Below are positions 7,083 through 35,403 of a stretch of 64,000 nucleotides of DNA, piece by piece. The notes beneath the pieces were generated by a model. It did no database searches and was not told the DNA's origin. It saw only the letters and a list, made by a program, of their open reading frames with translations. Positions within the stretch are counted from its first letter, which is position 1. Every line of letters begins with the position of its first letter. The DNA is taken from contig NC_081842.1 in the NCBI RefSeq assembly GCF_963259705.1, forward strand, positions 62,446,787-62,510,786, written 5' to 3'. The DNA comes from Myotis daubentonii. Its lineage: Eukaryota; Chordata; Mammalia; Chiroptera; Vespertilionidae. A program made the position numbers and the translations under genes.

Positions 7083-7684
7083 TGTATATATATAAAAGCC
7101 TAAGTGACCAGAATGACCAAAACAACTGGAACAACTAGTCACTATGATATGCACTGACCACCAGGGGTCAGACACTCAACACAGGAGCTGCCCCCTGCTG
7201 GTCAGTGCACTCCGACAGCCAACCTCCCCTAGCCAGCCAACCTCCTGTGGTCCCACCCACTGCCAGAAGGCCCTGATTGCCTGATTGGGGCCAGCCCCAG
7301 GGCTGGGATGGGGAGCCAGGGATGGGTGGCAGTGGATGCAGACCCTTTCTCAGGGTGGCTGAGGGCCAGTTCTCTCCTCGGGGCTGGTGGCCAACCTCCA
7401 GTGCCCTGTTTATCCCCCTGGCTGGCAGGCCCCGATCAGCCTGCCACCTACCAACCATGGTGGCAGTGCAGCAGTGAGGGAAGGAGGAGGTGGGGAGGCA
7501 GGGAACCTCACGGTGGCAGAATGCCAATAATGGCGATGTTGGCATCAAGCATCCATTCCTTCCACACCCGGCCTGGTGACTGTCCCCTCCTCTCCAGCCC
7601 AGCCCTGATCGGCCTGGCCCTGATTGGCCCTGACTGCCGGCCAGGCCTAGGGACCCCATCTATGCACAAATACCGGGCCTCTAG
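7083..7684 (+). mobile_element. Non-autonomous HeliBat, head to tail with previous
   Basis: The left end reads TGTATATATATAAAAGCCTAAG (TC changed to TG) and starts directly after the CTAG of the preceding Helitron. The right end is ...TGCACAAATACCGGGCCT then CTAG at 7681-7684 and T at 7685. The body is GC-rich and non-coding. A 163-codon open frame on the minus strand (7168-7659) is low-complexity and lies wholly inside the transposon. Confidence 0.9.
7187..7203 (-). promoter_or_regulatory. CTCF-like core motif in Helitron 5' end
   Basis: On the minus strand the site reads GACCAGCAGGGGGCAGC, a close match to the CTCF core (CCAGCAGGGGGC). A weaker opposed partner, CCACCAGGGGTCA, lies at about 7159-7171. 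Binding is inferred only. Confidence 0.45.
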
Positions 7685-16006: not shown

Positions 16007-16236
16007 CTGGGGGGCTGCGAATCAGGCCTAGAGAGAGGCCTGAAGAGAGAAGCAGGGTCTGATCCATAGCCTGTGTGGCAGCTGTTGATCAGCACTTGCC
16101 TCTCTCTTTCTCTCCACCAGGCCAGGAGCCACGACTCCATTTCTCTCCAGGCCTCCACCCGGACTGCTGATCAACCCTGTCTTTCCAATCAAGCCCCGTT
16201 GATAGGCCCAGAGATACTGACTGGCATAGAAACCAA

Positions 16237-30989: not shown

Positions 30990-31260
30990 CCCTATGCCAA
31001 GGAACCTGCAAAATCATTCAATTAGGCAATCCACAAGGATACCGTGAAATCTAGCTAACCCCACACTGCTAGCTATACATAAAATGTCCCCTATACCTCC
31101 AGCTTTCTGTTATCTTGTTCCTAGTAAAACCTCTTATGTGACTTGTGTGTGAGCCTTTTCTTGTTCTGAGCTGTAAATAACAAAGAGTGCTGCCTTTCAT
31201 CTATCCAAGTGTCTTTGTTTAGTGTCTCACCAGCAAAATATCTTCAAATCTTATAAAATA

Positions 31261-31614
31261 TTAGTGGTCCAGTGCACGAAATTTGTGCATGGGGGTGAGG
31301 GTGTCCCTCGGCCCAGCCTGCACCCTCTCCAATCTGGAACCTCCATGGGGGATGTCCAACTTCCGGTTTAGGCCCCATCCCTGAACTGGCAGTCGGACAT
31401 CCCTCTCACAATCCGGGACCGCTGGCTCCTAACTGCTCGCCTGCCTGTCTGCCTGCCTGTTTGCCCCTAACCACTTCTGCCTACCAGCTTGATTGCCCCC
31501 TAACTGCTCCCCTGCCAGCCTGATTGATGCCTATCTGCTCCCCTGCCAGCCTGGTAGCCCCCAACTGCCCTCCCCTGCTGGCCTGATTGCCCCCAAGGCT
31601 TTTATTAGTATAGA
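31261..31614 (-). mobile_element. Non-autonomous HeliBat, 354 bp
   Basis: Minus strand: 5' TCTATACTAATAAAAGCC ending at 31614, 3' hairpin GCACAAATTTCGTGCAC-type then CTAA (CTAG worn to TTAG on the plus strand) at 31261. Flanks A and T. Contains units of the GGGCAGTTGGGGGC minisatellite at 31430-31590. Confidence 0.9.
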
Positions 31615-32166
31615 TATGACCTTTCACAGAAAATTTCACTAACCCTGCTTTACAATAAGGGTGTGACGATTGAATCATTGGGGCCAGACACCAAGATTTA
31701 CTTTCTTTGAATAGCGGAGGGAATAATTATCTTGTCTTTAAGTTGCCCTGAACATCAAATGAGCTAATGATTTAGAAAAGTATAAAGCACCATATAAAGA
31801 CAACTGTCTTTTTCATATACTGAAAAGACAATTAAGTGGTAAAATGAAAAACATTATTTTTATCCTCCCCCTTCCTTTCTTTACAGCCTTTATTTAAACT
31901 TTGAAATTTATAAAAAATTCACTCCTATTTTCATTTCTTTACATTAATATTATTTTGTATTCGTTTCAGGTTTATTAGTTACAGAATAGTGGTTAGACAA
32001 CCATATACTTTACAAAGTGTTCCCTGATATTTCCAGTACCCACCTGGCATCATACCATCATTACAACACTATTGACTGTATTCTCTATTTAAGTGACAAT
32101 AGGTTTACAGGTTCCTTCCAATCTTCCTTTTGTGTTGCTTGCCCTTCCTTTTCTTTCTCACTCCTT
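31615..32166. other. AT-rich spacer
   Basis: Nothing recognised. Confidence 0.5.
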
Positions 32167-32180
32167 CCCTCATTTTCTTT

Positions 32181-33280
<1,100 letters not shown>

Positions 33281-33334
33281 CCCTCATTTTCTTTATATAG
33301 TATCTCAATTGGCTCTCAAAGGTCAGCAAAGGCA

Positions 33335-33440
33335 CTGGGACACACTGAATCTATTTTACAGACCAGGAAACTGAGGCCAATACCATTTGGCTGCGGAACT
33401 TGACTCAGCGCACAGAGAGCCCTCAAAGTCATGCTCTCTG
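33335..33440 (-). mobile_element. MIR fragment (approximate)
   Basis: 'attttacagaccaggaaactgaggcc' (33352-33377) is the conserved MIR core 'ttttacagatgaggaaactgaggc'. Orientation is uncertain. Confidence 0.55.
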
Positions 33441-34170
33441 TCCTTCCTAAGGGGCAGCCCTGGGGCAAACAGAACAAACCTCTCAGACAGGCTCCTGAGC
33501 CTCGTTCTCAAGCACCTCTTCATCTTCATCGCAGATGCTCCACATTCTTTCCTCTCCCCTGGCCCCATTCTTTACTGCCCCCCCTTCTCTGGAGCAGGTG
33601 GTAGGCTTCACACTCACCATGCAGGCATGCGCTGTGGTGGGGCAGGAGGGACCCGGGCTTGCTTTTGGGCCAAGGCGGGAGCAGAAGTAGCTGCCTGTCA
33701 AGTGCATAGGCCACTGGGGCGAGGCCGGGTTAGCACCAGGAGTTTCTACTAACTGCAGCAGTCGGGTACCCAGCAGTGTGGTGCCCCTCCACTGAGGTAG
33801 CACCGCCCCTCAACCCCCGCCTCAGGGTTGTGGGCCTGCCTGGCGTCCTTCCACCTTGTTCCCCGCGCGCGGCGACACCCATCTTGGGGCACTGCGGAAC
33901 CTCACTCTCCGTGAGCGAGGCAGATCCCAGCCTGCCTGCCCCCCGCTCCAGCCTGAGCCCCCTCTGGCACACCCCACCTCACCACTGCTCTGCGCCCCTT
34001 GGGCCACCCGCCTCCTGGCCAGCAGCTTCACCGAAGCCACTGCGTTTGCCCAGGAGCCACCGCTAGGAAAGCCCTGCAACCAGGCCTCTTGCTGCTGCTA
34101 GGTCTCCACCCTCACCTGGTTCACCTCCTTTCTTCCACATTTGCCCTTCATCCATCCCTCTCTCCTGCAG

Positions 34171-34230
34171 TGCTTGAGCTCCAGGCTGAAAGAAAAGGAC
34201 CAGGGCCAAGAAGGACAAAGCCCAAAGGAA
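34171..34230 (+). other. Candidate captured exon 1 (60 nt)
   Basis: A pyrimidine tract and AG (34152-34170, 'ccatccctctctcctgcag') precede exactly 20 codons read C-L-S-S-R-L-K-E-K-D-Q-G-Q..., ending at GAA followed by GTGAGT (34231-34236). Frame and splice phase are both zero. I cannot name the source gene. Confidence 0.4.
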
Positions 34231-34304
34231 GTGAGTCTTGAACCCCCACATCCCACTCTCTGGATTTCCTCCTGCACCTCCTCTCTGATTCACGTCTTGC
34301 ACAG
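34231..34304 (+). other. Candidate 74-nt intron
   Basis: Starts GTGAGT and ends with a pyrimidine-rich stretch and CACAG. Short but within the range of mammalian introns. Its presence argues for DNA-level capture rather than retroposition. Confidence 0.4.
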
Positions 34305-34535
34305 GCACCAGGTTCTGGCACCCTGCAGCCCAGCCACATGGCCTCCCGTGGCCTGGTAGAGTCAGTCTCCAAAGCTGTGGATCTCAGCAAACCCATGCCG
34401 GCTGGAGAGGACTGTTGGAGGAGGAGGAGAGCCAGTCCGTCATTAGCTCCCCAACTCCAAAGGAGGCACCACAGGCTCCTGTCCCTGGCAGCTGTGGCCC
34501 CGCCCCCATCCCTGCTGCCTGCTAAGTGTTTGTGA
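34305..34535 (+). other. Candidate captured exon 2
   Basis: Opens in frame with the previous exon (A-P-G-S-G-T-L-Q-P-S-H-M-A...) and stays open to the TGA at 34533-34535. A second frame carries an acidic run LEEEESQSVISSPTPKEAP at about 34410-34466 up to TAA, so a frameshift near 34405 is possible. No family recognised. Confidence 0.38.
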
Positions 34536-34582
34536 CTGTTTCGGAGTCCCGGTTAATTAGCATATTACTCTATTATATAGAT

Positions 34583-35403
34583 AAATGCTTGCTCTTTCTC
34601 TCTTAGTCTCAAAATAACAAAAGCAATATTAATATCAAGAATAAGATGAATGTGGTTTAGGTACCTTTGTGGTTATTTTGTTTTTAGAGCAATTCCCACT
34701 AGGGAGGTGCAGCCCCAAATACTGTGTGTTTCAAAGTTCTCTTAAAATACATCTCTTCACTTGAAATAATGATCTGTATGGCTTTGCCAACAATTTGATA
34801 TGGCATTAAGCTAATTTGTTTCAGCTTTTTTTTAAAAAAAGATTGTGTTGCTTTTCAAAAATTTAATTTAAAATCATACAAATATTTACATAGTTTCAAA
34901 GTTAAATGTATAAAGAAACATGTATTGAGACATCTAACTTTGATAACTATCCCCAAACTCTCTCCTATTCTGTCTTTTTGCTATTGGTTATCAGTTTTAC
35001 TAGGTCTTGAATTTTCATCCCATGGTTTCTTTATGAAAAGTGTGTATGTACACACACAGAATTATACACACATATACATTGTTCTCATGTGGCTTTCATT
35101 GAAGGTAGCATTCTATGAACACTCTCATGTACCTTGCTTTCTTAATTAATATTTGCTGAAAATGACTCTATATAGTCATTATTCTTATTTATTAAATATT
35201 TATTGCTTAGAAGAGTTTTACATCTACAGAACTGCAAAGATGGTATGAAATATGACCACATTATTTGCATTCACTTTCCTCTATTACCATCTTGCATTAA
35301 CATGATAATTGTTTTATAATAAATGAACCAACATTGATATATTATATATTATTATAGTATTACCAATATATTGTCATTGTAATATATTATTAATAATACA
35401 TAA
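34583..35403. other. AT-rich non-coding stretch
   Basis: Nothing recognised with confidence. The right end is a run of TA-rich sequence. Confidence 0.45.

Follow-up and report, generated by a model that had tools for sequence, protein, structure and literature searches.

Results

A Helitron end at the edge of a GC-rich block

The window, i.e., the whole 64-kb stretch of bat DNA that was analyzed, contains a GC-rich block with a HeliBat 5' end at its right edge, a conserved 60-nt segment inside it, a MIR SINE in its left part, and an RPLP0 processed pseudogene beside it on the left (Table 1). Read on the minus strand from 34581, the DNA runs TCTATATAATAG..., opening with TCTATATAATAGAGTAATATGCTAATTAACC, and is preceded by host ATTTA, the last A of which forms an A/TC site, i.e., the 5' TC inserted after A by which a HeliBat is recognized. 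A loose scan of the 64 kb revealed 20 HeliBat 5'-end-like and 21 HeliBat 3'-end-like places, from which we judge the window to be bat DNA of vespertilionid type. When the first 32 nt were aligned with seven other HeliBat 5' ends taken from the former set, there were 25-29 identities with each, with 4-8 gap positions. The first-pass annotation had placed the right edge of the block exactly at a HeliBat 5' end, and the TC after A, together with these identities, bears this out. Because the HeliBats that were compared diverge past about 30 nt, the GC-rich DNA occupies the start of the HeliBat interior.

The GC content was 0.606 over 33440-34581, compared with 0.386 for the whole window, 0.33 for the left flank (31615-32169), and 0.35 or 0.29 for the right flank (34582-34725 and 34582-35015, respectively). 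The ratio of observed to expected CpG was 0.32 in the block and 0.48 in 33700-34060, against 0.19 in the window; the earlier description of the block as CpG-rich was therefore too strong. Sliding codon-usage scores gave no clear coding frame in the block. The best stop-free window by this measure was antisense, at about 33501-33560, and overlapped the MIR at its low end only.

The left edge proposed earlier, at 33440, did not hold. The MIR SINE (local score 49 with the consensus, against a shuffle maximum of 32) spans this position, and homology with one of the relatives described below (P0001) extends to 33351, which leaves the left end of the block somewhere at or left of 33351. Next to the block lies the RPLP0 processed pseudogene: tblastn with an RPLP0 sequence matched 32258-33203, Pfam PF17777 was matched with an E value of 1.5e-8, and identical 14-nt flanks, i.e., a target-site duplication, are found at 32167-32180 and 33281-33294. 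We take the pseudogene to be a separate insertion, which accounts for the raised GC content at 32181-33280; beyond it, AT-rich DNA (31615-32169) is reached.

Table 1. Features at the right edge, in the interior, and on the left of the GC-rich block
Feature	Position	Strand	Remarks
RPLP0 processed pseudogene	32181..33280 (ends inferred)	-	adjoins block; flanked by identical 14-nt repeats
GC-rich DNA of host-gene origin inside Helitron 5' end	33351..34549		P0001 collinear over 33351-34443; six query pieces; GC 0.61
MIR SINE	33353..33515	-	spans 33440; P0001 aligns through it
Place where bat copy seems to lack part of second stretch conserved between P0001 and P0003; candidate end of preceding exon	33694..33741	+	tentative
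3' splice site of conserved exon	34152..34170	+	polypyrimidine tract and AG; PWM score 6.5
Conserved exon, 60 nt	34171..34230	+	four relatives have one more base; out of frame here
5' splice site GTGAGT of conserved exon	34231..34236	+	GT; PWM score 4.2
Proposed 74-nt intron	34231..34304	+	not supported: acceptor AG missing in P0001, P0003, and P0004
Proposed second exon	34305..34535	+	not supported: no conserved acceptor; codon-usage score -18.2 bits
HeliBat 5' terminus (LTS)	34550..34581	-	starts at 34581, with TC after host A

Relatives of the block and a conserved exon

Translations of the block were chained and used as the query in a protein search, in which the 7994 candidates sharing most words were scored; this yielded at least four proteins at a cut-off of E ≤ 10: P0001 (1.4e-19), P0002 (2.1e-6), P0003 (5.5e-4), and P0004 (4.5). 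None of the four carries a name, and none matched a Pfam family at E ≤ 1. Other genomes carry the same locus, and the four proteins are read-throughs of its antisense strand, as shown by translated matches that lie on the minus strand of the block. We back-translated them to degenerate DNA and aligned this to the bat sequence, a site being counted as readable where it was narrowed to one or two bases. P0001 was collinear with 33351-34443, through the MIR SINE and past 33440. When six pieces of P0001-P0004 were placed on 424 tiles of the window, on both strands, the best place for each was the block. Although P0004 had a poor E value as a protein, its aligned piece had a z score of 21 against its own shuffles. 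In this way, conserved host DNA can be recovered from assembly databases by means of antisense read-through proteins, without a search of mammalian genomes. The DNA inside the HeliBat 5' end is old and, as judged from P0001-P0004 and from the conserved exon, homologous to host-gene DNA. According to the account in PMC4971623, the build-up of DNA transposons started some 40 million years ago, in an ancestor of the vesper bats.

The best conserved part of the block was a 60-nt segment singled out in the first-pass annotation as a possible exon, of which the acceptor AG at 34169-34170 and the GTGAGT at 34231 were all found as described. Within it, matches at readable sites were 46/47 for P0001, 46/47 for P0002, 44/47 for P0003, and 45/46 for P0004, i.e., 181 of 187 in total, compared with 1253 of 1530 in the other block segments; with P0001 alone the figures were 46/47 in the exon and 638/769 elsewhere (Fisher p = 0.004). 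The acceptor AG and the donor GT were compatible with all four relatives. Given this conservation and these splice sites, we take the segment, on alignment evidence, to be a real exon. Each of the four relatives has one extra base inside it (one gap per alignment), so that the shorter bat exon is frame-shifted relative to theirs. An acceptor-donor-acceptor set of equal or greater strength, scored with PWMs, occurred in 119 of 2000 dinucleotide shuffles of the block and in 12 of 107 other windows, and it is conservation, not the splice scores alone, that raises the first exon above chance. Because the exon has kept both splice sites and has conserved non-exonic flanks, including the MIR, the block represents a copy made at the DNA level with introns kept, and not a retrocopy.

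The exon is putatively protein-coding. Its inferred peptide had no PDB match at E ≤ 10 and no Pfam match at E ≤ 1, a protein search with two exon frames gave no candidate, and none of six short peptide strings taken from it was matched in the literature. On the opposite strand (34116-34185), an antisense acceptor at 34185 (score 7.2) and an antisense donor at 34115 (score 7.4) overlap the conserved exon and outscore the sites in Table 1; these are probably chance occurrences.

A second conserved stretch is shared by P0001 and P0003 (71% over 52 aligned columns). Tentatively, the bat copy lacks part of it near 33694-33741, where the alignment is gapped (77 gap positions in that of 33661-33760). 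This stretch, in which a start codon may be present, could be the end of a preceding exon, and this leads to the guess that the DNA came from the 5' part of a gene.

Origin of the block

We consider it probable that the block was brought to its present site by a HeliBat, as set out in the Discussion. Had it instead been native, i.e., the decayed remnant of a gene always at this site, beside which a HeliBat left a short 5' end, then the DNA of the relatives past the block ought to match the right flank in the bat. When compared with the sequence from 34540 onward, P0002 1-135 and P0004 1-150 gave z scores of -0.6 and 1.1, compared with scores of 10 to 29 for the four pieces from 34000-34540 that served as controls, and at tile 34501 the outer pieces of P0002 and P0004 ranked 152, 304, 287, and 185 of 424. 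The power of this test is limited, because the same two pieces scored little better inside the block (P0002 1-135, z 2.6 in 34260-34540; P0004 1-150, z 1.2 in 34400-34560); P0002 60-135 did rank 3 of 424 at tile 34201. On the opposite side of the exon, z scores for P0002 and P0003 were 2.7-3.0 only. With similarity already fading within the block, the mismatch to the right flank is not decisive on its own.

Base composition provided a second comparison. With all free bases set to A or T, the GC content was at least 0.40 for P0002 1-48 and at least 0.39 for P0004 1-60, compared with 0.35/0.29 for the bat flank; for P0004 1-145 it was at least 0.36 only, a narrow difference from the flank, and indels could shift the correspondence. 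The relatives thus stay GC-rich beyond the junction, with no match to the bat flank, and this argues against a native block within the limits just given, as do the AT-rich sides (GC 0.33 and 0.29-0.35) around DNA of 0.61 GC. The block does contain a MIR, like much native DNA, and no Helitron 3' end was found for it (see below); Helitrons with new 3' ends and with truncated ones are on record in PMC4778049. On balance, we regard a native origin as unlikely.

The region of proven homology ends at 34443, which is 138 bases from the HeliBat 5' end and on the inner side of the element. An ordinary duplication or translocation, with the Helitron end at its edge being a later arrival or a coincidence, would account for the fact that one end only is a Helitron end while the left end is undefined, but the closeness of the homology edge to that end, which is so oriented that the block falls within the element, makes it an unlikely candidate. 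As P0001 itself ends at 33351 and 34443, exact breakpoints were seen at neither side.

No HeliBat 3' end, i.e., a hairpin with CTAG before T, scored above shuffles in 33281-34540 (best scores 17 and 19) or in 31615-32169 (best scores 12 and 14). In the same search, three control regions scored 40, 50, and 42. No second copy of the block was found within the 64-kb window. A correctly oriented HeliBat 3' end does lie farther left, at 31260-31277, and insertion beside other Helitrons is described in PMC4778049, which would allow for a longer Helitron running from 34581 to 31260, with the AT-rich 31615-32169 as cargo too. This is most improbable, because that 3' end belongs to a neighboring HeliBat with its own 5' end at 31614, at a canonical A/TC site.

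The proposed second exon

The first-pass annotation had also proposed a 74-nt GT-AG intron after the 60-nt segment, followed by a second segment open in the same phase. The letters are there (GTGAGT at 34231 and AG at 34303-34304), and the reading frame of the second segment stays open as far as 34535, but neither the intron nor the shared phase survived comparison with the relatives. In P0001 and P0004, RT stands in place of the second acceptor AG, in P0003 its A column cannot be A, and P0002 is gapped at this point, i.e., the acceptor is missing in 3 of 3 readable relatives. Because the first exon is one base longer in all four, the joined phase is not theirs and appears to be an accident. 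Over its 97 codons, stop included, the joined frame had a codon-usage score of -18.2 bits. Nor did its translation (34171-34230 plus 34305-34535) lead to a gene: there were two weak PDB matches (best E value 1.1) and no Pfam families. A frame-bridged version gave three candidates and no matches in the protein search, and no PDB match was obtained with the second segment in another frame. Among nine further translations compared with Pfam, only the RPLP0 piece matched (two families, one above the cut-off). Although a splice set of this strength combined with an open frame this long was rare (16 of 2000 shuffles and 0 of 107 other windows), a fragment in which two exons share a frame across a 74-nt intron is scarcely credible in view of the missing acceptor, the length of the exon in the relatives, and the lack of a significant PDB, Pfam, or protein match.

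Discussion

Helitron gene capture, as suggested in the first-pass annotation, is the best reading of the locus, although it is not proven: conserved, gene-derived DNA with one exon does lie beside a HeliBat 5' end, while the two-exon model has to be given up. The flank tests, the GC bounds, and a correctly oriented Helitron 5' end lead us to favor, with some confidence, a history in which a HeliBat failed to stop at its 3' end and took with it a portion of a conserved gene, in antisense orientation relative to the element, after which the copy decayed. The lack of a 3' Helitron end and of a second copy in the 64-kb window, the unseen breakpoints, and a parent gene without a name count against it.

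If capture did occur, the HeliBat would have moved with a normal 5' end and would not have halted at its normal 3' end, so taking along at least 1.1 kb of flanking DNA of a conserved host gene, antisense to the element, i.e., 3' read-through capture or transduction. The cargo, probably from the 5' part of the gene, would have included one complete exon flanked by its two splice sites, together with GC-rich sequence and the MIR SINE, and it would have landed at an AT-rich, gene-poor site. After landing, the frame of the exon would have been lost, part of the neighboring conserved stretch seemingly went as well, and at some time the RPLP0 processed pseudogene would have joined the side of the block. 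As an alternative to bypass, the 3' end may have been lost later. A more specific proposal, which we put forward only tentatively, is that the locus arose naturally by one-ended HeliBat insertion, in which the 5' end was used properly, the 3' end was bypassed altogether, and more than 1 kb of the DNA of a conserved gene was moved.

A known HeliBat of similar kind is HelibatN3, which, as described in PMC4778049, contains captured host-gene DNA bearing a splice site, i.e., the NUBPL promoter, six codons, and a splice donor, and which forms an amplified subfamily. Unlike HelibatN3, the present block occurs once in 64 kb, has no 3' end that could be found, carries its cargo antisense, and contains an exon with both splice sites. 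There is also a likeness to the 3' read-through products of Helraiser, which have a canonical 5' TC/A junction and no canonical 3' end or hairpin, and which carry flanking DNA, although these products were made in HeLa cells (PMC4778049). From the same source, Helraiser lacking the 3' end or hairpin gave canonical 5' junctions with new 3' ends, and intact Helraiser carried flanking DNA in about 11.7% of events. In three natural subfamilies, 39 of 395 copies are reported there to have new 3' ends, one of the 39 having arisen via bypass of the CTAG. By analogy, the present locus would fit the natural CTAG-bypass case, or else a HeliBat that lost its 3' end later. If capture is correct, the locus is a further natural example of a Helitron that read through in the absence of a 3' end, its cargo being a conserved exon. 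With both splice sites kept, the captured exon could still be spliced into a plus-strand read-through transcript.

Additional observations

Searches outside the window for HeliBat end patterns gave no matches in viral contigs. There was one match in prokaryote contigs (L001), which was taken as chance, inspection of the surrounding 501 bases by eye revealing no further HeliBat sequence. A promoter and terminator scan of 34540-34600 found neither, its models being bacterial and unsuited to bat DNA.

Elsewhere in the window, a full-length Rfam mir-574 hairpin (RF00929, 92.1 bits) was found at 16036-16116. It was considered as a marker of the FAM114A1 gene and rejected, as there was no match to FAM114A1 and the hairpin sits immediately upstream of, and apparently within, a HeliBat ending at about 17030. 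The RF00929 consensus appears to resemble the hairpin in the window more closely than it does human mir-574. Finally, HeliBats are arranged head to tail at 7083, 27058, 27652, 37070, and 45720, where a 3'-end-like match abuts the 5' end of the next element.
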